From the NCBI GenBank assembly GCA_021740845.1, contig JAIOYZ010000008.1, positions 1 through 64,000 of the forward strand: a DNA stretch of 64,000 nucleotides, read 5' to 3'. Each line of letters opens with the position of its first letter. Position 1 is the first letter of the stretch. Of the stretch, positions 3,779-20,015 are shown piece after piece. A program made the translations under genes and the position numbers. Source of the DNA: Bacteroidia bacterium. GTDB lineage: Bacteria; Bacteroidota; Bacteroidia; UKL13-3. The notes under the pieces were generated by a model. That model made no database searches. It was not told the DNA's origin and saw nothing but the letters and a program-made list of their open reading frames with translations.

Positions 3779-3780
3779 GG

Positions 3781-4146
3781 TGGAGCTGCAGGGATTCGAA
3801 CCCTGGTCCGGAAGTGCAATGGTCACGCTTTCTACATGTGTAGCGCAACATTATTTTCAGCTTAGGCGGGTTGTTTCGCTTACCAACCTAAACTATATTT
3901 ACTAAATACTCTTTACAGCCAGTAACCACACTGCAAACAGTCCCTGTCAAATGACGGTTCTAGTGAATACGCGACAAGACAAGCGCATCCGAACCGAAGG
4001 CATATGCGTAATCGTCCTGATTAGGCAGCCATTGCGAATTGAGTTTCGCCAACTATAGTTGTGGAAATTGATATTATAGTGCCAACTGTCCAATGCACTA
4101 CATGCTTACATGCCAATCAATCACCCCGTCAATACCGGTCAGCCCC
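3781..4146 (-). ncRNA. ssrA: Transfer-messenger RNA (tmRNA)
   Basis: On the minus strand the 5' end GGGGCTGACCGGTATTGACG is the typical tmRNA start, and the 3' end has a T-arm (GGTTCGAATCCC) and acceptor strand CAGCTCC that pairs with GGGGCTG with one G-U wobble. The discriminator A is at 3781; the next encoded bases are CCT, so the final A of CCA is not encoded. The tag frame (4050 to 4021) follows UAGUU with resume codon GGC and reads GETQFAMAA then UAA, giving AGETQFAMAA on rescued proteins. With SmpB it rescues stalled ribosomes and marks products for degradation. Length is about 366 nt, a usual one-piece tmRNA. Confidence 0.95.
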
Positions 4147-7512: not shown

Positions 7513-10029
7513 TTAGGCTCTAGCCTTGAGTTTTTCTTTAGCAAATAATCCCGTTAACAATAATGCTACAAATACTATCAAAGCCCATTCCTGTGGCTCG
7601 GGAACAGCTCCTCCTTCTAATATTTCTGCATTGCCTAAAGTGTTTTTATTTTTGTCAATTCCCATGCGATTATAGTCTTCTTCACTTTCTAAAACTATCA
7701 TGCTCGTTACCGGACTTAATACATAAGCTTCCTCAGCTTCTAAAAACAATTCGTCTTCGTATTGTTCGCTATCAAAGAAATTTTTGCCAATCTTTCTCAC
7801 GATATTATTGTAAGCAAATAAGCGCATAAGGTGATCAGGTGCACCATCAGCTTGGAGAATATCGCTGGTATCTTTTCTGTTCAATACCAAATTAGATTCG
7901 CTTAAAAACACTTTATCATCTGCTTCTTCCACAAATGAAAAGCGCTGCTGTAGAACAGAATTTTTCAATGCTCCCAAATCCATGGGTAGGTATTTTATTA
8001 AGCGTAATTCGGCTAAGGTTTTGTAGAGCGGACTTAAATCATCACCAATATTTACAAATAAAATAGGTGCATTTTGTTTTTGAAAAAAATGGGTTAAACT
8101 CTTAGCATATTCAGATTCTTTCATTTCCTTTAACAAAGGCGAACGCGGCGTTCCTTTGCAAATAACCATGCTGCTTTCGGGCGAAGTAAACAATTGAAAA
8201 TAGGGCAAAGAAAATTGGCACTGACTGTATTTATCCCAAATTGCATCGGCATTCTTTGGTGTAATTTTAGCACAAGGCGATGCCATAACAAAAACCTCTT
8301 TTTCGTGCAAGGTTTGGAGCAAATCTGTATACTCTTCTTTGGTCCAATTTTGGTTCAAATCTAAATAATATTTAGTAAGCCTAACCGAATGTGCTTCTGG
8401 TTTTGCTTCTGAAATTGAATAGGCTTTTTTGTGAAAAATAAATTCTCCCTGCGAGAGGGGAACACTTGGAATAGAAAATTTCCAATATGGCAAATAATCG
8501 CCTTTGCGGTAAAACTTCCCTGTTTCGTCTTCCTCAAAATCTTTAGAAAGTTCAATCGTACCTTTCTCTCCTGCAAATCTAATTTCGGTAAGCTCGCGTG
8601 CATGTTTGGCATCAGGACCTTCAAACCAGATATTCTCAAGCCATAATTTTCCATCGGAATATTTTAGTGGAGTTGTGAACCCAATTTTAAAAACACGGTC
8701 TTCTGCTGCTGTGCAAGGAAACACAGAAACTACTACTTGATTTCCTTCTTTCCAATGAACCAATGCAGGGTCTCTTCTTTCTACTCCTACAATTTGTTTA
8801 AATGCCTTATCTGCCTTCTTGCGCGTAGTTAACCTCGATAATTCTTCTTTGCCATCTATGGTTAAAGAAAGGGATGTTACAATGCTTCCTTCTGGCAAAT
8901 GAAAGGTATACAAAGCTTGTTGCGTTTGCGATACAAACCAAAAATCTTTATTGCGTTTTTCTGGTGAATTATGAATGGTTAAGATTTTTTGGTGATACGC
9001 AATTCTGTATTCTGGAAAAACCTGAATTTGAGAGGTAACAGAATTGGTAGTTAAACTCACGCCTGTCCATAACCTGCCCTCTGTTTTATGCCTTTGGTTG
9101 CGCCTAATATTTAACAAGGAAGTAGTAGATTCAAAATCTAAATTTACTGCTCCAAAAAACATCTCACCCAAAATTGCCAAAGGATTGTGGTATTTGGTTT
9201 CATTATCAAATCCCAAGCCCCAAGCATCGCTCCAAAAGCGTTGAGAATAAAAGGGAGAAATAAGAATTTCATCGCTCAATTTATCTGCGGGCAGCCATTG
9301 TGCCAAAGCAATGGGAGCGGGCAAAGCCAACTTAGAATTTAAATTATTCTCGGCTTGTATATCGCTAACTTTGTCTTTTAAAACACGCCAATTATTAAGG
9401 TAAACACCCATAACCAACAATGGAATAATGGCTCCTAAAACAATGGCTAATTTGTTTACCTTCTCTTGTTTTTGGATCAACAATACAATTAATACCACCC
9501 AAAATACGGGCACAAATGTGTGAACTGTTAAGCCAAAAAACCAAAAGCCTAAAATAGAAATTGGCATTAATGGCAAAAGGTATAAAGTAAAATAAATGCT
9601 CAGAATTAACTCTGCTCCAGTTAATACCCAAACTGCATTTTTTAGGCCTTTAGGCAAAAACTCAAAGTAAGGAAAAATCAAAAACAAGCTGGCACCAAGC
9701 AGGGTGTAAACGCTCAGCCATGTTGGAAATTCGGCAAAAACAGGGATATTTTGGTTCAAACCGAAAGCACTTATGGTATACAATAAAATGAAATGTACCC
9801 AACAAGCGTAAGGAATATTTGGCCTTGGCCTTTCTTGCCTAAATTTGGTTATTATTAATAAAACATAATACCCAATAGTGATAAAAAAGTTAATCCCGAA
9901 AAGTAAGAATAGAGAATCTAATTTGATATTTATGGTATTGCCAACAATAAATACTGCAAAAGAAATAAAAAGTAAAATCCAACCCAATTGGTAGGCTAGT
10001 TTAAAAGATCCAAGGTTTAGTTTAGGCAT
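7513..10029 (-). CDS. XrtN-system VIT-domain protein with PEP-CTERM-like tail
   Basis: An 838-residue membrane protein. The first ~230 residues hold about six transmembrane helices, followed by a large outside domain with a VIT-like stretch (SLTIDGKEELSRLTTRKKAD, then FKQIVGVERRDPALVHW). The C-terminus has PEPQEW, a hydrophobic helix (ALIVFVALLLTGLFA) and a basic end KEKLKARA, which is the PEP-CTERM sorting layout. It is the only visible substrate for the adjacent exosortase, only 4 bases downstream and surely cotranscribed. I start at the ATG at 10029; a TTG 39 bases upstream (10068) would add 13 residues and cannot be excluded. The role of the pair is unknown. Confidence 0.85.
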   Translation of the reverse strand: MPKLNLGSFKLAYQLGWILLFISFAVFIVGNTINIKLDSLFLLFGINFFITIGYYVLLIITKFRQERPRPNIPYACWVHFILLYTISAFGLNQNIPVFAEFPTWLSVYTLLGASLFLIFPYFEFLPKGLKNAVWVLTGAELILSIYFTLYLLPLMPISILGFWFFGLTVHTFVPVFWVVLIVLLIQKQEKVNKLAIVLGAIIPLLVMGVYLNNWRVLKDKVSDIQAENNLNSKLALPAPIALAQWLPADKLSDEILISPFYSQRFWSDAWGLGFDNETKYHNPLAILGEMFFGAVNLDFESTTSLLNIRRNQRHKTEGRLWTGVSLTTNSVTSQIQVFPEYRIAYHQKILTIHNSPEKRNKDFWFVSQTQQALYTFHLPEGSIVTSLSLTIDGKEELSRLTTRKKADKAFKQIVGVERRDPALVHWKEGNQVVVSVFPCTAAEDRVFKIGFTTPLKYSDGKLWLENIWFEGPDAKHARELTEIRFAGEKGTIELSKDFEEDETGKFYRKGDYLPYWKFSIPSVPLSQGEFIFHKKAYSISEAKPEAHSVRLTKYYLDLNQNWTKEEYTDLLQTLHEKEVFVMASPCAKITPKNADAIWDKYSQCQFSLPYFQLFTSPESSMVICKGTPRSPLLKEMKESEYAKSLTHFFQKQNAPILFVNIGDDLSPLYKTLAELRLIKYLPMDLGALKNSVLQQRFSFVEEADDKVFLSESNLVLNRKDTSDILQADGAPDHLMRLFAYNNIVRKIGKNFFDSEQYEDELFLEAEEAYVLSPVTSMIVLESEEDYNRMGIDKNKNTLGNAEILEGGAVPEPQEWALIVFVALLLTGLFAKEKLKARA

Positions 10030-10058
10030 AAATATTTTTTTGTATGAACCTAAACGAA

Positions 10059-10092
10059 GATAGGGCAAAAGAAATTATATCTCCTGCCCTAT
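10059..10092 (-). terminator. Possible terminator after dabB
   Basis: GATAGGGCA and TGCCCTATC form a perfect 9 bp stem between dabB and the VIT gene, both on the minus strand. The T tract after it is short, so termination is probably partial. Confidence 0.45.
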
Positions 10093-10118: not shown

Positions 10119-11987
10119 CTAAGAAGAACGGTAACCCATTTCGTAAACCGAATGTACATGCGGACCTAAAAACACCCTGGCGTAAATTCTGATAATTGAC
10201 AAACCATCCATAATAAAACTAGCAGAGACAAAAATGGCCAAGGCAATTTGATTGGGATGAATATGGCTAAACACCAAATCTTCCCCAATAAAGGTTGGAC
10301 TAATTGGAAAACCTGTCAAGCCTAAACAGGTAAGTAAAAACAATAAACCTTGTTTTGGATGTTTGTAAATATGTCCGTTAAAACGCGCCAAATCAATATT
10401 GCTTTCTATGTTATACATTCTATTTAGCGAATAATAACCAATAGAACCTGCCACAATAATTCCACTTAAATACAAAGCCGTTTCGGTAAACATAAACTTC
10501 TCGTTGAAGGAAATGGCCAAGGCAACCCAAAAGTGATTTAATATAATTAAGACCCAACTCATGCGCGCTTTGTGTCGTTCTGTAAAGGATTTCAACACCA
10601 TAATTAATCCAATTAAAGAAAACAAAATTGGCAAATAATGCGTAAAGGAATCTGGCAGCATATTGATATTGTACCGCATTCCTACCCCAATAAAAAATGC
10701 AGGAATAAAGAAATAAATAACATGCTTCAAAGTAATAAATGAAAAGCGATTTCCCAACCACTTTACTGGATTCCAATAAAGCGTATACATCATGTTATTT
10801 AAGTTCCATTCTTTCACACTCATAATATAAAACGTATACAATAATTTCTTAGCAAACACTTTTTTCAAAGGCTTTCTATTGGGAACAAAAGTATAAAACT
10901 GCTCTTTGATTAAATACGTTACCACAGATGGAGATACCAATAACTGGTAGGTTCTTAAGAAAGCATTACCTGCAAAATGCACCAAGGCCAAAATACCCCA
11001 TCCTAATGAAAGTTCTATAAAAATTAATCCAATTTGTGCAATGGATGCATAAGCAATCTGGCTCTTAATATTGGATTGCACATTGGCAGTTAGCGTTGCA
11101 ATAATTGCCGTGCTTAATCCCATAAAGCCAATTAAATAACGCACCGACAATTGATGTTCCCAAAACGGATAGGTACGCATCATTAAGAACACTCCCAAAT
11201 GAACGGCCAACGAACCATAGAAAATCGCACTCGATGGTGTTGGTCCTTCCATTGCTCTAGGCAACCAAGCAGAAAATGGAAGTTGTGCAGATTTAGCCAA
11301 AGCCGTTAAGAGAATCATAAGTGAAATAAAAATACCAATAAGCGAATGCGATTGTAAATGCTCGTTTACCATTTCATAATTGCTCAATTTTAAAAAGGTA
11401 ATATTCTCATGAAACAAGTGGTGACTCATCCACATAGCTAGGATCAAACCGATATCTCCTATGCGGTAAATGGAATAAACTTTTACTGCATTTTTTACAG
11501 GCAAGAAACGCTCGCGGTAAAAGGCAATCAGTAGAAATGAAGATATTCCTAAGATTTCCCAACCGATAAATAAGGTTTCCATATTGCCCGCAAAAATGGT
11601 GAAGTTATACCCCATAAAGAAAAACAAAATGGTATTGAAAAACCTTTTGTAACCTTCTTCTCTGTGTAGGTAATACCGACTATAAATGGTAACCAAAAAA
11701 GTTAGGAATGAACCCACAAAAGCATAAACTGCTGTAATTTTATCGAAGCAAAAATCAACAAAGAATTCGTATCCATTGGAAGAGAACAAAACAAAATCCT
11801 TGTGATCGAGTTTTTGAAAACCTTGATAGGCCCATACTACTAAAAAGATTTGAAGCGAAATTAAATGTGCACCTACACTTAAGAATGAAAATTGAGAAAG
11901 TAATTTCTCGTTGTTTTTGGGTAATACCGTGCTTATCAAAAATCCAATTATTGGAAGCACTACCCATATATTTATTAAGTTTTCCAT
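10119..11987 (-). CDS. dabB: DabB-type inorganic-carbon transporter subunit (NuoL-like)
   Basis: A 622-residue polytopic protein of the proton-conducting NuoL/MrpA family: ETLFIGWEILGISSFLLIAFY, then KSAQLPFSAWLPRAMEGPTPSSAIFYGSLAVHLG, the classic quinone-oxidoreductase helix motif with its conserved Lys. No other complex I genes are nearby. Instead it sits 8 bases after a DUF2309 gene, and that pair is the DabAB complex, which uses an ion gradient to drive one-way conversion and capture of CO2 as bicarbonate. DabB is the membrane, ion-translocating half. The C-terminal ~150 residues carry extra hydrophobic helices. A stand-alone NuoL copy is the alternative, made unlikely by the partner gene. 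Confidence 0.85.
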   Translation of the reverse strand: MENLINIWVVLPIIGFLISTVLPKNNEKLLSQFSFLSVGAHLISLQIFLVVWAYQGFQKLDHKDFVLFSSNGYEFFVDFCFDKITAVYAFVGSFLTFLVTIYSRYYLHREEGYKRFFNTILFFFMGYNFTIFAGNMETLFIGWEILGISSFLLIAFYRERFLPVKNAVKVYSIYRIGDIGLILAMWMSHHLFHENITFLKLSNYEMVNEHLQSHSLIGIFISLMILLTALAKSAQLPFSAWLPRAMEGPTPSSAIFYGSLAVHLGVFLMMRTYPFWEHQLSVRYLIGFMGLSTAIIATLTANVQSNIKSQIAYASIAQIGLIFIELSLGWGILALVHFAGNAFLRTYQLLVSPSVVTYLIKEQFYTFVPNRKPLKKVFAKKLLYTFYIMSVKEWNLNNMMYTLYWNPVKWLGNRFSFITLKHVIYFFIPAFFIGVGMRYNINMLPDSFTHYLPILFSLIGLIMVLKSFTERHKARMSWVLIILNHFWVALAISFNEKFMFTETALYLSGIIVAGSIGYYSLNRMYNIESNIDLARFNGHIYKHPKQGLLFLLTCLGLTGFPISPTFIGEDLVFSHIHPNQIALAIFVSASFIMDGLSIIRIYARVFLGPHVHSVYEMGYRSS

Positions 11988-11995
11988 GACTACTA

Positions 11996-14491
11996 TTAAT
12001 TGAGAATGTATACAGGTAAATTATCTTCTTCCTTAACAAAAATTGGCAACAGTTCTTTTGGATGTTGGAGCTCTTTGGTTATAGGATAATAGGGCTCAAA
12101 CTTCTCGTTATTGAACAAATACAAATCGTGTGTTTGGGGATGCACAACTGCTAAATAAATCCATTTATTTTTGAACCATTCATAGGTTTCTGGAGAACCT
12201 TGAAGGGTATTTAAAACAACCTCAGGATAATGTTCTACAATTGTTAATAGGCGCAATGGATCGTGCACTTCAATCATTTGACTAGGCAATCCTGGTCTTA
12301 AATCGCCATCAATTCCGTTGGCTACACCAAATAATCCCATTACATTATGCGGCAATTTTGTACCTGCACCCAACTTTTGATTATCAACTCTTGAGAAATA
12401 ATATTCTAAATTAATTCCACCACAAACTGGGGCAACAGCCTTTAATATTCCCAACAAATATTTCCCATCTGGATCAATGGCATAATCATAAGAATTCAGG
12501 AAAGAGCGGCGGTCTAAAAACAACTTATCAGATAATCGTCTTGAACCAACAATACATAAAGAATTAGTTGCGTGATTTAATTCTGGTCTTGGTTCAAACA
12601 GAGAAACAGAACGCAAACGAATTTGCTCGTGAATTTTCTCATGAGAAGCTGAAGTGTCAATGGACTCGAACCTTCTAGAACGCTCAACAGCATTATTCTC
12701 TAAAGCATTTAAAAAGGATTGCACATTTTTCTCGTGCATTTCTCTTACCATTGGGTTCACCAAATCTTCATCGTAAAACATCACTTCATCGCGTGTTGTA
12801 TCTCTAATTCCACCAATAAAAAAAGTAGAATTGGGAAGATCGATTCCTCGTTCACGCAAACGCTTTCTTACTTCTGGATGATTGCCCATATAAGAAATAA
12901 CACGTGCATTTACAGAACCTGGTCTACCAGAACAGGCACCACAATCATAAGCGGCATAATGCGGGTTATTGGTAGAACTAGAACCATGTCCTACCGCATA
13001 AATCAAAGGTGCAAAATCTTTAACCAAACCAATGCTTTTCAACAAACCTTCTACCCTATCAGTCATTTCATCTAAGGTAAAACCAACTTGCAAACCTCTC
13101 TCGTGATGGTCGGGATGACGATTTTCAATAGTTAAATTTGCAAGCTTATCCATATGCGTAAATGAGGATGCACTTGCTGGCGTGGCCTGTGGTCTAAAAA
13201 TATTTAGAAACAACTTCAATGCCGACCAAAATCCCAAGGTTTGTGTAATAACCCAGCCACTGTGCAAGGAATGTGAATGCTTAGAAAAGTTGGGGTCTAT
13301 TTCTCTTTTACTGTTTGAACCAACCTCTTTTATTAAATAAGGTGGATCAATAGGAGCCGGACAAACTTTGCTTAAGAATTTTCCATTTTGAGGCTGATAA
13401 TAGAAAGCAACATTGAAAAACCCGGGTGTACCAAAAGTTGTGCAATTGGGATCTTCTTTTTCTAAATGTCTTCTAAAAGAACATTCTCTATCATCGATGC
13501 AAAACATGGCTTGAAAGCTAGCCTTCATATTTATTTCTGGCATTGCAGCCGATTCTCTAACACCTTCTAAAACCTGATCAAAATAAGAAAACTCCAAGGC
13601 CTCTTGCCAAATGGCTTGTGCTTCCGACATTTCTGTATCCTTAATTGGATCAAACAGCTCTTTTGGCCTTACCTTAATTATCTTAGACAAAGGCAACCAA
13701 TTTAAACCCAACTTATCATCTAAGGCATCCATTTCTAGAAGCAATTCAAAGGCAATTATATCTTCTAAGGTAATACGCTTTTTATCTAATAAAGTATGCG
13801 GATTGGCTTCAATTGCAGCCACCATACCCGACCAACCCTGATGAGAAAACTGTTGGTCGAATAAATACTGGCGGTACATGGTTTCATCGCCAACAATTCT
13901 ATCGAGCAAGAAATGTAAATCGCAATTTCCGTTCACCAATAAATTTCTAACACGCTTAGATTTAAAAAAACTCACATAGGCGTTTTTCTCTAATTCTCGG
14001 ATTGAACCAATGAATCCTTTTCTATCTGCAGGGAATTTCCAAATAGATATGCCTTGATCCAAATAATTGCTAAGCAAACGAAATAAACGCGGCTGGATAT
14101 ATGAATCTAAATCAACTCTGCCCACTTCTTTCCACTGGTAGCGAAGGTTTCCAATCCTAGGATTTTCGGGTTTATCCATATCGCCATATAGCAAATGGTT
14201 TAAATAAGTATTTGGATTTGTTTCTGGTTTTCTTTGTTGAATAACGCGCAATAAAACCTCGTGGTTTATCTTTTTATTTTGGTAAAAATCTCTAAATTCT
14301 TCTAGAGAAAGACTTACCTGATAGCCAAAAATCTTGGATGCTTTTCTAATTCCCTTCTCAAAAGGCAAATCCTGAAAAGCATGCAAAGTGTTATGATGAA
14401 TAAAATCTTTGAGTGGTGCTTGCGCCGGCAGGTAATGGGCTATTTCATGTACCACCGCATGCAAATCTATTGAATGCTTATTTCTATGCAT
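11996..14491 (-). CDS. dabA: DabA-type inorganic-carbon subunit (DUF2309, zinc protein)
   Basis: An 831-residue soluble or peripheral protein of the UPF0753/DUF2309 family. The beta-carbonic-anhydrase-like zinc site is intact: Cys331 and Asp333 in FCIDDRECS, His502 in AVGHGSSS and Cys517 in YDCGACSGRPG. The His-Cys distance of 15 and the Cys-x-Asp spacing match the published DabA site. The N-terminus has DFIHHNTLHAFQ, another family hallmark. I chose the ATG at 14491; a TTG at 14542 would add 17 hydrophobic residues. It is followed after 8 bases by dabB and preceded by a small membrane protein gene, probably one operon. Likely function is energy-coupled bicarbonate accumulation. Confidence 0.9.
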   Translation of the reverse strand: MHRNKHSIDLHAVVHEIAHYLPAQAPLKDFIHHNTLHAFQDLPFEKGIRKASKIFGYQVSLSLEEFRDFYQNKKINHEVLLRVIQQRKPETNPNTYLNHLLYGDMDKPENPRIGNLRYQWKEVGRVDLDSYIQPRLFRLLSNYLDQGISIWKFPADRKGFIGSIRELEKNAYVSFFKSKRVRNLLVNGNCDLHFLLDRIVGDETMYRQYLFDQQFSHQGWSGMVAAIEANPHTLLDKKRITLEDIIAFELLLEMDALDDKLGLNWLPLSKIIKVRPKELFDPIKDTEMSEAQAIWQEALEFSYFDQVLEGVRESAAMPEINMKASFQAMFCIDDRECSFRRHLEKEDPNCTTFGTPGFFNVAFYYQPQNGKFLSKVCPAPIDPPYLIKEVGSNSKREIDPNFSKHSHSLHSGWVITQTLGFWSALKLFLNIFRPQATPASASSFTHMDKLANLTIENRHPDHHERGLQVGFTLDEMTDRVEGLLKSIGLVKDFAPLIYAVGHGSSSTNNPHYAAYDCGACSGRPGSVNARVISYMGNHPEVRKRLRERGIDLPNSTFFIGGIRDTTRDEVMFYDEDLVNPMVREMHEKNVQSFLNALENNAVERSRRFESIDTSASHEKIHEQIRLRSVSLFEPRPELNHATNSLCIVGSRRLSDKLFLDRRSFLNSYDYAIDPDGKYLLGILKAVAPVCGGINLEYYFSRVDNQKLGAGTKLPHNVMGLFGVANGIDGDLRPGLPSQMIEVHDPLRLLTIVEHYPEVVLNTLQGSPETYEWFKNKWIYLAVVHPQTHDLYLFNNEKFEPYYPITKELQHPKELLPIFVKEEDNLPVYILN

Positions 14492-14568
14492 TATTAAAAA
14501 TATAAGTTTGAGTAATTTAAAAAAATGCTTGGCCGAACCCAAGCTAAAAAGCAGGAAAGAATGAAATT

Positions 14569-14928
14569 CTAATTCCTAAGAACCTGAATAAACAGAAAAA
14601 TTGGAAGGCTAATTAAGCTAAGCCAACTACTATCTATAAAATGAAAAGGTATTCTGCTGGAAATATTTTGATGAAGAATTGAAGAATCAAGAAAAGGGAA
14701 AATAGAACAAAATGCTTCTGTTCTTATTTCTTCTGATTCTCCCTCGGCCTCTACTTCTTCCATTAAGTAAACCTGCGAAAGAATATCGGCAGTAGCTTTA
14801 CTTTTTAAGATTAGCGCTTTGGTTGTGCTATTTTGGGCCGACCCAAATGAGGCAAACAACAAACTAGCCAATAAGCCCAAAAGTGTAAGGCTTAAAAAGG
14901 TGGTTTGTATTTTCCTATTCTTGGTCAT
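14569..14928 (-). CDS. Small acidic membrane protein upstream of dabA
   Basis: A 119-residue protein: a hydrophobic N-terminal segment (FLSLTLLGLLASLLFASFGSA, about residues 10-30) that may be a signal peptide ending at SAQ, a K/A/T-rich linker, an acidic patch MEEVEAEGESEEI, then an F/I/L-rich C-terminal half ending in a second hydrophobic segment (LISLPIFLFIQVL). No family recognised. It precedes dabA by 77 bases in the same direction, with its own TAnnTTTG box. A protein of the same plan (signal-like segment, EELEEVETEEEE-type patch, PFLSFSFASF) lies upstream of the SulP gene at 16636. This parallel suggests a shared accessory role with the two carbon transporters, which is inference. Start is the ATG at 14928. 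Confidence 0.65.
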   Translation of the reverse strand: MTKNRKIQTTFLSLTLLGLLASLLFASFGSAQNSTTKALILKSKATADILSQVYLMEEVEAEGESEEIRTEAFCSIFPFLDSSILHQNISSRIPFHFIDSSWLSLISLPIFLFIQVLRN

Positions 14929-14934
14929 CGAAGG

Positions 14935-14942
14935 CAAATGTA
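14935..14942 (-). promoter_or_regulatory. -7 box (TACATTTG) of the dab operon
   Basis: Exact TAnnTTTG on the minus strand, only 6 bases before the ATG at 14928. With a start point about 6-7 bases after the box, the mRNA would begin at or next to the start codon. Confidence 0.5.
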
Positions 14943-15121
14943 ACGAAATGCCATCCCAAAATCTTATCAAGTTAAGGCAAGGTCAAAATCAGATTCAAAT
15001 GTGACAATCCATTTTTTTGAGAATCAAGAGGTTTTGGTTTGAACCAAGGCCACAGAAAAAAAATTGCGAAGGCTCCAAAAATTAAACTTATTTTGCAGCC
15101 TTAACATTAAACAATCTACGC

Positions 15122-16510
15122 ATGCAATACGATGTAATAGTAATAGGTAGTGGACCCGGCGGCTATGTAGCTGCTATTCGCGCTAGTCAATTAGGTTTAA
15201 AAACAGCTGTTGTTGAAAAAGCTGAATTAGGAGGCGTTTGCCTTAACTGGGGTTGTATCCCAACCAAAGCCTTATTAAAATCTGCACAGGTTTTTGAATA
15301 CATCAAACATGCAAAGGATTACGGAATTGAAGTTGGTTCGGCCACTCATGATTTTGGTGCCGTTGTAAAAAGAAGCAGGGATGTTGCTAACGGAATGAGC
15401 AAAGGAATTGCCTTCTTAATGAAGAAAAACAAAATTGATGTAATTGCTGGATATGGTAAATTAGCAAGTGTTGGAAAAGTAGAAGTAACTGATGCCACTG
15501 GCGCAAAAGCTATCCACGATGCCAAGCATATTATTTTAGCTACAGGTGCCCGCAGCAGAGAATTGCCAAATATTAAAATTGATGGCAAAAAAGTAATTGG
15601 TTACCGCGAAGCAATGGTTTTACCTCAACAACCAAAAAGCATGGTAGTTATGGGTTCTGGAGCCATTGGCTGTGAGTTTGCTTATTTCTACAACTCCATG
15701 GGAACCAAGGTTACAATTGTAGAATTTTTGCCTACCATCCTTCCAATTGAAGACGAAGAAGTTAGCAAAGAAGTTGCTAAATCATTCAAGAAATCTGGCA
15801 TTGAAATGATGACCAATGCTTCTGTAGAAAGCGTAGATACAGCTGGAACAGGTTGCAAAGTGAAAGTAAAAACTGCAGATGGAATTAAAGAAATTGAAGC
15901 AGATATCGTTTTAAGTGCAGTAGGAATTCAAACCAATTTAGAAAACTTAGGTTTAGAAACTTTAGGTGTAAAAACAGATAAAGGCAAAGTATTGGTAGAC
16001 GATTATTATGCTACCAATATCAAGGGTGTTTATGCTATTGGAGATATTGTGAAAGGTCCAGCTTTGGCACACGTTTCAAGTGCAGAAGGAATTATTTGTG
16101 TAGAACAAATTGCAGGACATCATCCAGAGCCTTTAAACTATAATAATATTCCAGGTTGTACTTATTGCTCTCCAGAAGTTGCCTCTGTAGGTTATACTGA
16201 AAAAGCGGCAAAAGAAGCTGGTTACGAAATTAAAGTTGGTAAATTCCCATTCTCTGCAAGCGGCAAAGCAAGCGCTGGTGGCGTTAAAGAAGGATTTGTT
16301 AAATTAATTTTTGATGCTAAATATGGTGAATTCTTAGGAGCACACATGGTTGGCGCAAACGTAACCGAGATGATTGCCGAAGTAGTTGTGGCAAGAAAAT
16401 TAGAAACAACAGGAATGGAAATCATCAAATCTGTTCACCCTCATCCAACCATGAGCGAAGCCATTATGGAAGCCGCAGCACAAGCTTATGGAGAGTGCAT
16501 TCACTTGTAG
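15122..16510 (+). CDS. lpdA: Dihydrolipoyl dehydrogenase (E3)
   Basis: A 462-residue flavoprotein disulfide reductase that reoxidises dihydrolipoamide in 2-oxoacid dehydrogenase or glycine-cleavage complexes. Visible are the FAD-binding GSGPGG (9-14), the redox disulfide Cys40/Cys45 in GGVCLNWGCIPTKAL, the NAD-binding VMGSGAIGCEFA, the second FAD motif TNIKGVYAIGDI, and the C-terminal HPHPTMSEAI with the catalytic His. A second E3 (42362-43756) differs in the disulfide context (CLNVGC). No E1 or E2 gene adjoins this copy, so its complex cannot be told. It is divergent from the dab operon and closed by a strong terminator. Confidence 0.93.
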   Translation: MQYDVIVIGSGPGGYVAAIRASQLGLKTAVVEKAELGGVCLNWGCIPTKALLKSAQVFEYIKHAKDYGIEVGSATHDFGAVVKRSRDVANGMSKGIAFLMKKNKIDVIAGYGKLASVGKVEVTDATGAKAIHDAKHIILATGARSRELPNIKIDGKKVIGYREAMVLPQQPKSMVVMGSGAIGCEFAYFYNSMGTKVTIVEFLPTILPIEDEEVSKEVAKSFKKSGIEMMTNASVESVDTAGTGCKVKVKTADGIKEIEADIVLSAVGIQTNLENLGLETLGVKTDKGKVLVDDYYATNIKGVYAIGDIVKGPALAHVSSAEGIICVEQIAGHHPEPLNYNNIPGCTYCSPEVASVGYTEKAAKEAGYEIKVGKFPFSASGKASAGGVKEGFVKLIFDAKYGEFLGAHMVGANVTEMIAEVVVARKLETTGMEIIKSVHPHPTMSEAIMEAAAQAYGECIHL

Positions 16511-16530
16511 TTGATACCGAAATCTTATAT

Positions 16531-16563
16531 AAAAAACACCCAATAAAATGGGTGTTTTTTTTT
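16531..16563 (+). terminator. Rho-independent terminator after lpdA
   Basis: AAAAAACACCCA pairs with TGGGTGTTTTTT around a short ATAAAA loop, followed by more T. It lies about 20 bases after the lpdA stop. Confidence 0.9.
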
Positions 16564-16635
16564 GCAGTTTATAGAACAGACTGAAATCTTACATGCAATA
16601 TTGATTTTTTATACTTTCTTTTGTGAACGTCAAAA

Positions 16636-16971
16636 ATGTTTAAGAGAATAAGGAAAATATCATATCTATTAATAATTCAAGCCATCTGCATGGTTATTGG
16701 ATTAGGATATTTGCCGCAGACCAATTCCAAGGCAACCAAACAATCTCATCTTAAAGCTGAAACCAGTGTTCACTTTGAATACGTGGCAGAATTGGAGGAA
16801 GTTGAAACCGAAGAAGAGGAGGTGTATTTTACATACCAACCTTTCTTAAGTTTCTCTTTTGCGAGTTTTAAAGAAGTGACTACCCCACAATTATCGCAAA
16901 TCGTCTCAGGCCTAAAGCCAAAAATTAATAAAGAAACCATTCAGTTAATCAATTGTGTTTTTCGAATTTGA
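16636..16971 (+). CDS. Small acidic membrane protein upstream of the SulP gene
   Basis: A 111-residue protein with one N-terminal hydrophobic segment (YLLIIQAICMVIGLGYL, residues 10-26), then TNSKATKQ, an acidic patch (AELEEVETEEEEV, about 51-63), and an F/S-rich stretch PFLSFSFASF. No family recognised. It precedes the SulP gene by 72 bases. Its layout parallels the small protein before dabA, which shares SKAT in the linker, an EEVExE acidic patch and an F-rich stretch just after. I infer that the two are distant paralogs tied to carbon transport, but by eye the similarity is confined to these short segments. Confidence 0.6.
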   Translation: MFKRIRKISYLLIIQAICMVIGLGYLPQTNSKATKQSHLKAETSVHFEYVAELEEVETEEEEVYFTYQPFLSFSFASFKEVTTPQLSQIVSGLKPKINKETIQLINCVFRI

Positions 16972-17043
16972 TAGGAATTAAATGCCTTATGCATTACCCC
17001 TGTGCATTTTTTTCTTAATCAAATCTAAAACTTAATTACTAAT

Positions 17044-18687
17044 ATGGATATTAATCTAATACCCGCTGATGGACTTGCGGGATTAAAAAAACACTGGAAA
17101 GACGATTTACTTTCTGGTTTTGTCATTTCTCTTATTGCTTTGCCTTTATGCCTTGGAATTGCCATGGCCTCTGGAGTTCCACCTATGGCCGGTATTATTG
17201 CTGGTATAATTGGTGGTCTATTAGTTTCTTTAACTAGTGGTTCTTATTTAACTATTAATGGTCCTGCAGCAGGCTTGGCTGTTATTGTTTTAATGAGCAT
17301 GGAAGGATTTAAGAAAATGGCACCAGCCGGCTTAACTCCAGAACAAATTGAAATATTTGCCTACCAATGTACACTTGCTGTTGGTATTGGCTGCGGTGTT
17401 TTGCAATTACTTTTTGGATTTATTAAAGCAGGTGTTTTAAGTAATTTCTTTCCGTCTTCAGTAGTTCACGGAATGCTTGCTGCTATTGGAATTATGATTT
17501 TTGCCAAGCAATTTCATACAGCTGTTGGCGTAAAACCAGACGCAAAAAGCATGTTAGGAATTATTGGAGCCATCCCCAATAGTTTATTGCATATGAATCC
17601 AGAAATTGCTATTATTTCTGTGGTGAGCTTACTTATTCTAATTGGCCTTCCCATGATAAAACATCCTTTTGCTAAGAAAATACCAGCACCACTTTTAGTT
17701 ATTTTAGTAACTATTCCATTAGGTCATTATTTCAATTTAGAATCAGAACACAAATACCTTTTCTTAGACGGACATGAATATAACTTAGGTCCAAAGTTCT
17801 TGGTGAGCTTACCAGAAAATTTCCTAGACGGAATTGTACTCCCACGCTTTGATTATTTATTAACTGGCTTTGGAATTCAAATGATGATTACCTACTCTTT
17901 GGTTTCAAGCTTAGAATCTTTATTAACAGCAGCTGCCGTAGATAAATTAGACCCATACAAAAGAACTTCTAATTTCAATAGGGAATTATTTGCAAAAGGA
18001 AGTGGCAATATGGCTTCAAGCTTTTTAGGTGGATTGCCAATTATTGCTGAGGTAGTAAGAAGTTCTGCCAATGTAAGCAACGGTGCTAAAACCCGTTGGG
18101 CAAATTTTTTCCATGGAGCATTCTTATTAATTTTTGTTGTGTTTTTGAGCAGTTTGATCCATCAAATACCTCTAGCCGCTTTGGCATCTATGCTTATGGT
18201 AACAGGTTATAGATTGGCTTCTCCTCATGAGTTTAGCAAAACCTTACATTTGGGTAAAGAACAATTATTAATTTTTGTTACCACCATTGTTGTAACCATT
18301 GCCGATGATTTATTAGTGGGTATTGCGGCAGGTATTGTAATGAAAATTGTGATTCATATGGCTAACGGAGTTCCATTCAAAAGTTTATTCAAACCATTCT
18401 TAACAGTAAATGAAGATGAATCTGGAAATTATGTGGTGGATGTGGAACACTCTGCTGTTTTTAGTAATTTTATTGGAATGAAAAAGCAATTGGAAAAACT
18501 GGAAGATGGTAGAACACTAATTTTAGATTTTTCTGGAACCAATTTAGTCGATAGCTCTTCAAGAGAAAATTTTGAGCAAATGAAAAAAGATTATGAGAAA
18601 AAAGGTGGCAATTTTATCCTTAGAGGATTAGACGATCATACTCCATTATCCAGTCATCCAAAAGCATCCTTAAAAAAGAAAAACTAA
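17044..18687 (+). CDS. SulP-family anion (probably bicarbonate) transporter
   Basis: A 547-residue SLC26/SulP transporter. The N-terminus has the family segment LPLCLGIAMASGVPPMAGIIAGIIGG and LTSGSYLTINGPAAGLAVIV; about ten to twelve membrane helices follow to residue ~440. The C-terminus (about 455-547) is a STAS domain with LILDFSGTNLVDSSSRENF. SulP members carry sulfate, bicarbonate or other anions; the sequence alone does not fix the substrate. The setting beside dabAB and the shared small acidic upstream gene favour bicarbonate, as in BicA. It overlaps the porin gene by one base (TAATG), so inner- and outer-membrane steps are probably coexpressed. Confidence 0.85.
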   Translation: MDINLIPADGLAGLKKHWKDDLLSGFVISLIALPLCLGIAMASGVPPMAGIIAGIIGGLLVSLTSGSYLTINGPAAGLAVIVLMSMEGFKKMAPAGLTPEQIEIFAYQCTLAVGIGCGVLQLLFGFIKAGVLSNFFPSSVVHGMLAAIGIMIFAKQFHTAVGVKPDAKSMLGIIGAIPNSLLHMNPEIAIISVVSLLILIGLPMIKHPFAKKIPAPLLVILVTIPLGHYFNLESEHKYLFLDGHEYNLGPKFLVSLPENFLDGIVLPRFDYLLTGFGIQMMITYSLVSSLESLLTAAAVDKLDPYKRTSNFNRELFAKGSGNMASSFLGGLPIIAEVVRSSANVSNGAKTRWANFFHGAFLLIFVVFLSSLIHQIPLAALASMLMVTGYRLASPHEFSKTLHLGKEQLLIFVTTIVVTIADDLLVGIAAGIVMKIVIHMANGVPFKSLFKPFLTVNEDESGNYVVDVEHSAVFSNFIGMKKQLEKLEDGRTLILDFSGTNLVDSSSRENFEQMKKDYEKKGGNFILRGLDDHTPLSSHPKASLKKKN

Positions 18688-20015
18688 TGCAAAGAATTAT
18701 TTATTGGGTTCAAACCTTACTTATTGTTTGCGCCTTTTCTGTTACTCCAACCTATGCCCAAACAAAGGGTGGAAACAAAGAACTAAAAATGAATTTAAAT
18801 GAGGATGGCTCTCATTATTTAAAAGCCACAGTTACCGCTCAAATATGGGCTAGATACAACCAAAGCAATACCGGCACCACCGTTTTTGGTTATAATAAAC
18901 CAGAAACCTTTGATATTGGTTTAAGACGTGTGAGAACTCAATTGTATGGAAAAATTACCGACAAAGTGTTTTTCTATAGCCAATTTGGAATCAACAATTT
19001 TACCTATAACAGTGCCAGAAAACCATCTCTATTTTTTCATGATGTGATGTTGGAATACCAATTTACTCCAAGGGCTTTTCAAGCAGGTATGGGCTTAACG
19101 GCATGGACAGGTTTTAGTAGGTTCAGCTCCCCAGCTATTGCCTCCATTCTAGGTTACGATGCTCCTTTGTACCAACAAACAACAAATGATGTAAACGACC
19201 AGTTTCTAAGAAAATTGAGCATTTATGCAAAGGGTAAGATTTCTAAATTGGATTACCGTGTGGTATTAACAACGCCTATGGCAGTTCAAAATACAGGTTC
19301 AGTAAAACCATTAAATGCCAATTCCGACTTTTCTTACAGGCCTGCTAAATTGCAAAGCAGTGCTTATTTTATGTGGCAGTTTTTGGATGAAGAAAGTAAT
19401 ATGATGCCTTATATGACCGCAAATTATTTGGGCAAAAAACGAGTATTTAATATTGGCGCTGGTTACCAAATTCAACCAAAAGCAATGTGGCACTTGGCAG
19501 ATTCAACAAACGGAACCGCAACCATTGTTGAAGAGGACATGCTCAATTACAATGTGGATGTATATTACGATGCTCCAGTTGGTTCAAAAGGAAGTGCTAT
19601 TTCTGCTTATGCAGCTTATACTCATTTGGGTTTTGGATCAAACTATTTAAGAAACTTAGGTCCTATGAACCCAGCGGATGCTGCCAGTAAAACTAGCTTA
19701 GGTGGCGGCGGAAATTCTGTTCCACTTTACGGAACTGGAAATGTAATGTTTGCACAATTTGGCTACCTTTTGCCAAAGGAATTATTAGGTAAAGACAATG
19801 GCCAATTGCAAGCATACCTTATGTTTATGCATGGCAGTTACGAAAGACTTAATTCCCCAATGCAAGTTGTGGATGCAGGCTTTAATTATTTCTTAGATGG
19901 CCATAGAGCCAAACTAACTTTAGACTTTCAAAACCGTCCTGTTTTTGGAGTGAGTGATGCTAAAGTTAGTAGTAGAAAAAATGCTGTGATATTGCAATTC
20001 CAAATTGCAATTTAA
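18687..20015 (+). CDS. Outer-membrane porin, coupled to SulP
   Basis: A 442-residue beta-barrel protein with signal peptide (IIYWVQTLLIVCAFSVTPTYAQ, cleavage near residue 25). The mature sequence has alternating aromatic/hydrophobic strands, an RxRxxLYGKI segment (GLRRVRTQLYGKITDKVFFYSQFG) typical of Bacteroidota O/P-type porins, and a terminal strand ending in NAVILQFQIAI. It starts at the stop of the SulP gene (one-base overlap), so it probably provides the outer-membrane route for that transporter's anion. Its stop codon touches the stop of the convergent TolC gene with no base between. Substrate not shown by sequence. Confidence 0.8.
   Translation: MQRIIYWVQTLLIVCAFSVTPTYAQTKGGNKELKMNLNEDGSHYLKATVTAQIWARYNQSNTGTTVFGYNKPETFDIGLRRVRTQLYGKITDKVFFYSQFGINNFTYNSARKPSLFFHDVMLEYQFTPRAFQAGMGLTAWTGFSRFSSPAIASILGYDAPLYQQTTNDVNDQFLRKLSIYAKGKISKLDYRVVLTTPMAVQNTGSVKPLNANSDFSYRPAKLQSSAYFMWQFLDEESNMMPYMTANYLGKKRVFNIGAGYQIQPKAMWHLADSTNGTATIVEEDMLNYNVDVYYDAPVGSKGSAISAYAAYTHLGFGSNYLRNLGPMNPADAASKTSLGGGGNSVPLYGTGNVMFAQFGYLLPKELLGKDNGQLQAYLMFMHGSYERLNSPMQVVDAGFNYFLDGHRAKLTLDFQNRPVFGVSDAKVSSRKNAVILQFQIAI

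Follow-up and report, generated by a model that had tools for sequence, protein, structure and literature searches.

Two small genes, each pointing in the same direction as its neighbor, stand directly before two carbon transporter genes in a 64,000-nucleotide (nt) stretch of a genome of the class Bacteroidia (assembly GCA_021740845.1, contig JAIOYZ010000008.1, positions 1 to 64,000; hereafter the window, by which we mean the whole of this stretch), and the question raised by this locus is whether they encode parts of the transporters or elements that control them. One precedes dabA and the other a gene of the SulP family. An earlier note, made from the sequence alone, had placed them at 14569-14928 and 16636-16971, with gaps of 77 and 72 bases to the transporter genes, all of which was confirmed by open reading frames (ORFs) and Pfam matches, and had proposed for them an accessory or regulatory role common to both transport systems. 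Our analysis favors cis regulation over an accessory subunit: with a probability that we put a little above even (about 0.57), both ORFs would be cis-acting regulatory nascent chains, i.e. upstream-ORF (uORF) sensors, one per operon, and not transporter subunits. We favor this reading because the ORF stands before the head of a gene run, each operon has its own copy, no stable fold is predicted, the protein stretch between two conserved features is almost unconstrained, and the mRNA junction between leader and transporter is structured.

Small ORFs before dabA and SulP genes

The dabA leader ORF (product P0001; 14569..14928, minus strand, 119 amino acids plus stop) ends 77 nt before dabA (11996..14491, minus strand; PF10070, E 1.4e-214), which is read here from the ATG at 14491, the mechanical ORF start being the TTG at 14542. 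On the plus strand, the SulP leader ORF (product P0002; 16636..16971, 111 amino acids plus stop) ends 72 nt before the ATG at 17044 of the SulP-family transporter gene (17044..18687; PF00916, E 4.9e-60, and PF01740, the STAS domain), for which bicarbonate transport is assumed from the neighboring genes. Both leaders are read as genes on the basis of their ORFs, their homologues and selection on relatives; neither product had a Pfam or NCBIfam match above cut-off, and the same holds for ten relatives. P0002 reached 13.3 bits against DUF4330 (PF14221), below the gathering cut-off of 27.6 bits, and neither protein matched the HYC_CC_PP model (NF047658; threshold 28 bits).

A similarity search with P0001 and P0002 gave clear matches in only 3 of 60 relatives (G003, G011 and G013, all of the same genus and alike in layout), and we therefore surveyed by neighborhood, upstream of DabA and SulP. 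The survey base was 395 genomes of the window's class, a single class, with counts that ignore kinship among genomes, gene starts set by rule and signal peptides judged by hydropathy. DabA (E<=1e-40) was found in 78 of these genomes and SulP (E<=1e-80) in 103; the regions examined were 100 that were fetched, a subset of all matches, and three from the window's genus. ORFs were selected if they were 85-170 amino acids long, had a hydrophobic N-terminal part and ended 10-520 nt upstream, the C-terminus being ignored. Upstream room of 250 nt or more was available for 85 dabA and SulP genes, and 69 of these were preceded by such an ORF, against 2.25 (standard deviation, SD, 1.2) after dinucleotide shuffling; among 46 other genes of these regions, 5 were. 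Two of the 69 ORFs (L194, L215) are other exported proteins. By kind, the ORF was present before 39/44 DabA genes, 18/22 unfused SulP genes of at least 40% identity, and 9/11 other SulP genes; before SulP genes fused to a long C-terminal part it was found in 3/8, two of them being the exported proteins just named. Of five further genomes from related groups (Spirosomataceae, Sphingobacteriaceae and Chitinophaga are represented), four carry the ORF upstream of dabA, with near copies in three of the four, and one (L254) has none.

The leader ORF is found in front of the first gene of a run, whichever gene that is. Where SulP follows dabB after a gap of 431-537 nt (L143, L147, L152, L153), SulP has an ORF of its own again; the 36 DabA and SulP genes that follow another gene of the run at under 200 nt lack an ORF, but such an interval leaves no space for one, so they provide no test. 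At a further locus (L130, one of the five control genes that have an ORF), a leader ORF ending FRKLKLYC precedes not SulP but a DUF2490 gene (1759-2637) that heads a SulP-DabA-DabB run.

From the 76 ORFs selected, a working set of 62 was obtained by leaving out 11 of a second, PP-type kind, two that encode other exported proteins (L194-SulP, L215+SulP), and L181-DabA, an odd 87-residue reading, though it ends HNLRI. The alignments included A1, with 41 dabA-side proteins and without L183, a near copy of L182; A2, with 19 SulP-side proteins and without L127+SulP; and A4, from 29 of the 62. With the A4 profile, only P0001 and P0002 were found at E<0.1 in the window's own genome, and over the 395 genomes all 29 matches at E<=1.5e-5 lay directly before DabA or SulP, 23 of them being in the profile and six new. 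A profile search of PDB sequences, made with A2 only, gave no match.

The PP-type ORFs are a second kind of leader, before SulP genes of another clade (L129, L150, L157, L159, L164, L165, L168, L172, L179, L223, L224, L297). They have a helix, an acidic central part and, 2-5 residues from the stop, a C-terminal motif of the PPE/PPD/PPP type. As relatives of the type that ends in FRI they were rejected, given no useful profile match and a stem signal in 1/12 (including L127), and this SulP2 clade was kept apart.

The shared tail, the acidic patch and their constraint

What P0001 and P0002 have in common lies mainly at their ends. A pairwise BLASTP search gave no alignment between them. The profile-profile comparison that the earlier note had suggested, run with the 41 dabA-side and 19 SulP-side proteins, gave a probability of 96.9% over the last 18 columns only. 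An expectation-maximization motif search, run on the C-terminal 26 residues of 74 ORFs of which no two are identical, returned P-[LI]-[YF]-[LI]-x-x-[RCHQ]-[VNS]-[FLIW]-[RK]-[ILV]. Its log-likelihood was 566, whereas shuffled tails reached 220-234 and internal segments 284-316, and the best motif window ended exactly at the stop codon in 47/74 ORFs, three of which are poorly scoring PP-type ORFs. In the window, the motif codons adjoin the stop in both leaders (14572..14604, minus strand, PIFLFIQVLRN in P0001; 16936..16968, plus strand, TIQLINCVFRI in P0002).

The second shared feature is an acidic patch, with a net charge within 14 residues of -7 in P0001 (residues 54-67, codons 14728..14769, minus strand, centered 59 residues before the stop) and -8 in P0002 (residues 48-61, codons 16777..16818, plus strand, centered 57 residues before the stop). 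Defined as net -4 or more in 14 residues, it occurs in 52 of the 62 ORFs, and its distance from the stop is nearly fixed: the center lies 58 residues back (SD 4.3, median absolute deviation 2), as compared with an SD of 24.7 when the post-helix residues were shuffled, while the distance from helix to patch is looser (median 38 residues from the end of the helix, SD 9.1). Since the sequences are homologous, this constancy may partly be due to descent. On average, the stretch 46-75 residues before the stop carries a net charge of -6.4 and the last 11 residues one of +1.3. Of the common plan that the earlier note had described, the N-terminal hydrophobic helix, present in both proteins, and the acidic patch were upheld, and alignments of homologues keep the patch together with a C-terminal R or FRI; these same alignments ruled out SKAT and the F-rich stretch, which are not conserved features, as a shared signature.

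The ratio of nonsynonymous to synonymous substitution rates (dN/dS) was 0.14-0.47 in the 13 pairs of relatives, of 14, for which it could be computed, with synonymous rates saturated in some and with some pairs sharing a member, which indicates from sequence comparison that the leader ORFs are under purifying selection. Constraint is concentrated at the end, with pooled pN/pS ratios of 0.17 in the last 11 codons, 0.66 at residues 12-45 from the end, 0.37 at 46-75 and 0.41 in the rest, so that the leaders are least constrained between patch and motif. Because pS in the motif codons is ordinary (0.41), it is the peptide of the motif that is kept. AlphaFold2 models of P0001 and P0002 had mean pLDDT values of 64 and 62 and were confident only in the N-terminal helix (residues 5-30 and 2-24), which we take as weak evidence against a stable fold, the alignments being of 41 and 19 sequences.

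The tail is not restricted to carbon transport. Below the strong A4 matches there were 22 weaker ones, seven of which (L291-L297) were inspected. Four of these (L291, L292, L293, L296) precede genes of one look, and the two that were scanned (L292, L296) encode HlyD/RND-type adaptors (PF16576, PF13437); the ORFs end in NPIYITQRVLRI (L291, L293), WYLLYDVFLL (L292) and LPLFVLHKSFKHFLS (L296, from the window's own genus), and carry an acidic patch 56-71 residues before the end. Another, L295, is a HYC_CC_PP protein (6.8e-15) that ends in HPLYIRQCVFRI, i.e. with a PLYIxxxVFRI-type tail as in the dabA and SulP leaders; of the remaining two, L294 ends with its contig and L297 is a PP-type ORF before SulP. 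HYC_CC_PP was found in 124 of 198 class genomes, and 50 of its loci (L299-L348) were taken, 30 from the family search and 20 chosen for a model match that ends early. Five had no ORF by the pattern (HxC, CC) and one had unread bases, which left 44 ORFs, picked by that pattern and not each scanned with the model. We scored their tails with a position matrix trained on 45 stop-anchored dabA and SulP tails (leave-one-out, 44/45), with 501 ordinary gene C-termini as background: 39/44 scored above the 99th percentile of the background and 32/44 above all 501, whereas 10.5% of shuffled tails passed the percentile. Most HYC_CC_PP members examined thus end in a stop-anchored FQxF[LR]I-like tail, while the best-scoring members of the family (L299, L300, L301) lack it. 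The tail looks like a module common to proteins with different middles, metal ligands in one group and an acidic patch in the other, as judged from these sequences. The common role with DabAB and SulP proposed by the earlier note is hence supported in that the C-termini are related and the type recurs before these genes, and is not exclusive to them. Three HYC_CC_PP-type ORFs named above and a fourth, L319, have other, mutually similar aromatic tails (e.g. YHQYIFYS), perhaps a third tail type.

The leader-transporter junction in the mRNA

Junctions were folded as 60 nt of the ORF, the spacer and 30 nt of the gene. The median folding z-score was -2.34 for 74 junctions, 42 of which were below -2, and -0.28 for a comparison set of 80 other gene starts, folded at fixed length, of which 14 were below -2. 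The duplex between the leader end and the start region had a mean energy of -10.97, compared with -8.36 (SD 0.30) when partners were permuted, none of 2000 permutations being as low; a locus's own duplex ranked in the top three of 73 for 20/73 loci. When the spacer alone was shuffled, total folding energy was significant (p<=0.05) in 45/72 loci, and so was, in 22/72 (7.3 versus 3.1 paired bases), the pairing between the start region and a segment made of the last six codons and 12 nt more (hereafter the stem test). In one genus, where 86 genomes hold 29 dabA loci and 23 of these have leaders with the motif pattern, 13 of the 20 leaders not already counted passed the stem test, and start-region pairing was 23.9 versus 20.1 bases (p<=0.05 in 7/20). 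For the junctions of HYC_CC_PP-type and RND-type ORFs, 8/28 passed the stem test and 15/28 the folding-energy test. The SulP leader of the window is among the clearest cases (20.3 versus 2.5 paired bases, reached by 0/60 spacer shuffles): in the minimum-free-energy fold, the 5' arm of its predicted stem (16951..16986, plus strand) comprises the last six sense codons of P0002, the stop codon and 15 nt, and the 3' arm (17002..17037, plus strand) lies just before the SulP ATG at 17044.

Promoter-like elements point to a shared transcript. The sequence TAnnTTTG, which we take to be the consensus of the Bacteroidota -7 promoter element, occurs within 180 nt upstream of 51/99 leaders (15.7 expected; three genomes count twice), in 33/99 leader bodies (22.1 expected), and in only 1/99 spacers (7.9 expected). 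Together with a -33 element it was found upstream in 8/99 (3.1 expected) and in 0/99 spacers (1.5 expected), both small numbers. Since the elements lie before the leader and almost never in the spacer, leader and transporter are probably on one transcript. In the window itself, the sole TAnnTTTG before the dabA leader sits 6 nt ahead of that leader's ATG, and the 180 nt upstream of the SulP leader contain none; these were not used.

The surroundings of the two loci can be described briefly. A dabB-type gene (10119..11987, minus strand; PF00361, PF00662) follows dabA, a porin gene (18687..20015, plus strand; PF07396, just over cut-off) follows SulP, and between the operons there is a gene (15122-16510) for a pyridine-nucleotide-disulphide oxidoreductase. 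The gene after dabB (7513-10068, minus strand) encodes a tail that we take to be PEP-CTERM-like (VPEPQEW, a hydrophobic stretch and a basic end), so that an exosortase-type system may be near. A transfer-messenger RNA gene with the tag GETQFAMAA lies at 3779-4146 (minus strand), and the only Rfam match was a single sub-threshold snoRNA at 15029-15146.

Proposed regulatory nascent chains, rival explanations and known systems

According to the reading that we favor, the N-terminal helix would bring the translating ribosome to SecYEG and, at the C-terminal motif and stop codon, the motif in the exit tunnel would slow the last steps of translation. The acidic patch would by then be at or just beyond the entrance of the translocon pore, because it is centered 58 residues back and nascent chains are described as reaching the translocon at ~45 residues from the peptidyl-transferase center (PMC7886326). 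How easily the acidic segment is drawn outward would set how long the ribosome stays: a lingering ribosome would break the structure between leader and transporter, allowing the transporter to be made, whereas a chain drawn away quickly would let the structure re-form and keep the transporter off. We infer the ribosome pausing, the sign of the response and the sensed input, the sign from geometry. The input would most likely be membrane potential or pH at the membrane, in view of what drives the transporters concerned; RND pumps are proton-driven. DAB2 is described as a carbonic anhydrase driven by the proton-motive force (PMC13144422), and BicA, of the SulP family, is reported to rely on membrane potential (PMC10880623). 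Membrane potential also moves acidic residues through SecYEG and frees the SecM arrest, in an account where basic and neutral segments are freed as well, so that potential is not the sole force (PMC6028853). A bolder version, which we consider doubtful, would make of these leaders a nascent-chain sensor of membrane voltage (proton-motive force), in which the acidic patch is in SecYEG at the last codon and the potential pulls it outward and frees the ribosome, while a fall in potential would leave the ribosome waiting at FRI-stop, where it would open the mRNA of transporters that depend on the potential (DabAB, SulP, RND-type pumps); the metal-sensor-like HYC_CC_PP proteins would carry the same tail with another sensor part, and the whole would form a modular sensor class in the phylum.

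Several observations weigh against regulation by a nascent chain. The motif resembles no proven arrest motif known to us, and arrest is a prediction from sequence. The motif is also not always at the stop, as WK forms end 2-3 residues earlier and three cases 5-9 residues earlier, and 16 of the 85 genes with sufficient upstream space yielded no ORF within our selection limits, although three of these carry one that the limits missed (L134, before dabA; L133, i.e. G188/L133; and L191). At the RNA level, 50/72 loci fail the stem test, and with the last six codons alone only 17/72, and 4/20 of the one-genus loci, pass. Start regions overall are no more paired than in spacer shuffles (19.3 versus 19.5 bases; p<=0.05 in 10/72), and the junction structure therefore need not hide the start. 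The SulP leaders of three same-genus relatives fail the stem test (p 0.12, 0.32 and 0.13), such a stem is absent from the dabA leader of the window (0.25 versus 4.07 paired bases in shuffles), at which the start region is also less paired than in shuffles, and no covariation could be demonstrated within the one genus with MAFFT and RNAalifold, where a consensus stem, a weak one, appeared with 8 sequences but not with 12 or with all 23. Moreover, the C-terminal 10 or 28 residues of CutF, a leader discussed below, are reported not to have stalled ribosomes in a LepB reporter (PMC9973294).

If the small proteins were instead accessory to DabAB and SulP, as subunits or as assembly factors, with a membrane-embedded helix, an external acidic patch and a tail bound to the transporter, this would account for the strict dabA/SulP neighborhood of the strong profile matches and for purifying selection on the peptide, and a conserved tail could well be a binding peptide. 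However, ORFs with this tail also precede RND-type adaptor genes and HYC_CC_PP proteins carry it too, the residues that separate patch from motif are nearly unconstrained yet constant in number, no fold was predicted by AlphaFold2 from shallow alignments, the RNA junction is structured, and dabA and SulP have separate copies in one locus, and we regard subunits as unlikely. Structured junctions, in which the leader end pairs with the start region, and probable co-transcription would equally suit a leader ORF without arrest, the translation of which merely unfolds the junction or feeds re-initiating ribosomes, with the motif serving some other end such as quick removal of the peptide; we hold this to be quite unlikely, as it leaves unexplained both the amino-acid-level selection on the last 11 residues and the constant distance from patch to stop.

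PDZ ligands end in a hydrophobic residue at the C-terminus, and so do most members at the stop, as expected if the product were an exported small protein acting in trans, its tail a ligand of a periplasmic PDZ protease or partner and its acidic patch binding a cation or setting stability. The WK forms, which do not end at the motif, the lack of a known partner and the unexplained RNA features make this very improbable. Finally, the leader might control a terminator in the spacer rather than the start region, i.e. transcription attenuation, a special form of the explanation we favor. Of 73 spacers, 27 contain a terminator-like hairpin of -7 kcal/mol or lower, against 9.25 in shuffles, and a terminator-like hairpin with a T run is predicted between the P0001 stop and the dabA ATG (14527..14544, minus strand); yet 46/73 spacers lack a hairpin at that threshold and the window-wide scan gave 3 where 2.4 were expected, which is no excess, and attenuation appears the least probable of these alternatives. 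Neither outcome that the earlier note had named as fatal to its proposal came about: the ORFs are conserved beside dabA and SulP, as found in the survey of such loci that it had suggested, and the profiles are similar.

If regulation by these nascent chains is real, inorganic-carbon uptake in these bacteria would be under post-transcriptional control, and regulatory nascent chains would extend from the monitoring of metals and Sec to transporters, perhaps to the energy state of the membrane. The unexplained HYC_CC_PP family would gain a testable role, in which its last residues may be what matters, and the constant distance from acidic patch to stop opens a direct bench test. The titles and abstract openings listed by literature searches in open-licence PMC, which leaves most subscription papers outside, gave no description of small ORFs before dabA or SulP or of an FRI/FLI-stop tail, and in open-licence PMC there was no literature match for HYC_CC_PP.

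Comparable systems are known. CutF of Rhodobacter capsulatus is described as a uORF-encoded protein, the export of which depends on copper and controls an mRNA stem in front of cutO, and 40% (normalized) of CutF-like proteins are reported to come from Bacteroidota (PMC9973294). CutF and CutF-like proteins share with the window proteins a length below 150 residues, an N-terminal export signal, a conserved C-terminus and a position on the same strand just upstream of the regulated gene; at 119 and 111 residues, with a same-strand gene 77 and 72 nt downstream, P0001 and P0002 lie within the CutF-like filter (<150 residues, gene <1000 nt downstream). They differ in that the CutF-like set is defined by PP in the last 15 residues together with Cys/His metal motifs, neither of which they have, carrying the acidic patch instead. 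Of the mRNA stem-loop that lies between uORF and gene in the CutF case, a counterpart is predicted at the SulP leader and not at the dabA leader. The window ORFs precede carbon transporters; SulP, bicarbonate and carbonic anhydrase are absent from the main text of PMC9973294. The HYC_CC_PP family (NF047658) is likewise small, with an N-terminal helix and, in most ORFs of its type, a tail that matches the motif, and the window proteins are without its HYC, CC and PP features. CruR of Bordetella pertussis resembles the window leaders as a uORF with post-transcriptional control of a downstream transporter gene and, as described, differs in being of the DUF2946 type, in responding to copper and in its RAPP-type end (PMC9426467).

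The arrest-peptide survey of PMC10987492 used, as described there, four search criteria, and the stop-anchored, proline-ended (NSP/NAP-stop) groups in its account are reported only from Bacteroidota. Like those peptides, the window leaders are small uORFs with an N-terminal secretion or transmembrane segment, a conserved C-terminal motif at the stop and a spacer of more than 30 residues; unlike the uORFs of unknown function before sec or yidC sought there, they have dabA or SulP downstream, their motif is aromatic, basic and Ile-containing rather than proline-ended, and arrest in them is only predicted. Regulatory nascent chains as such are already known, and what would be new here is the sensor segment, the tail and the regulon.

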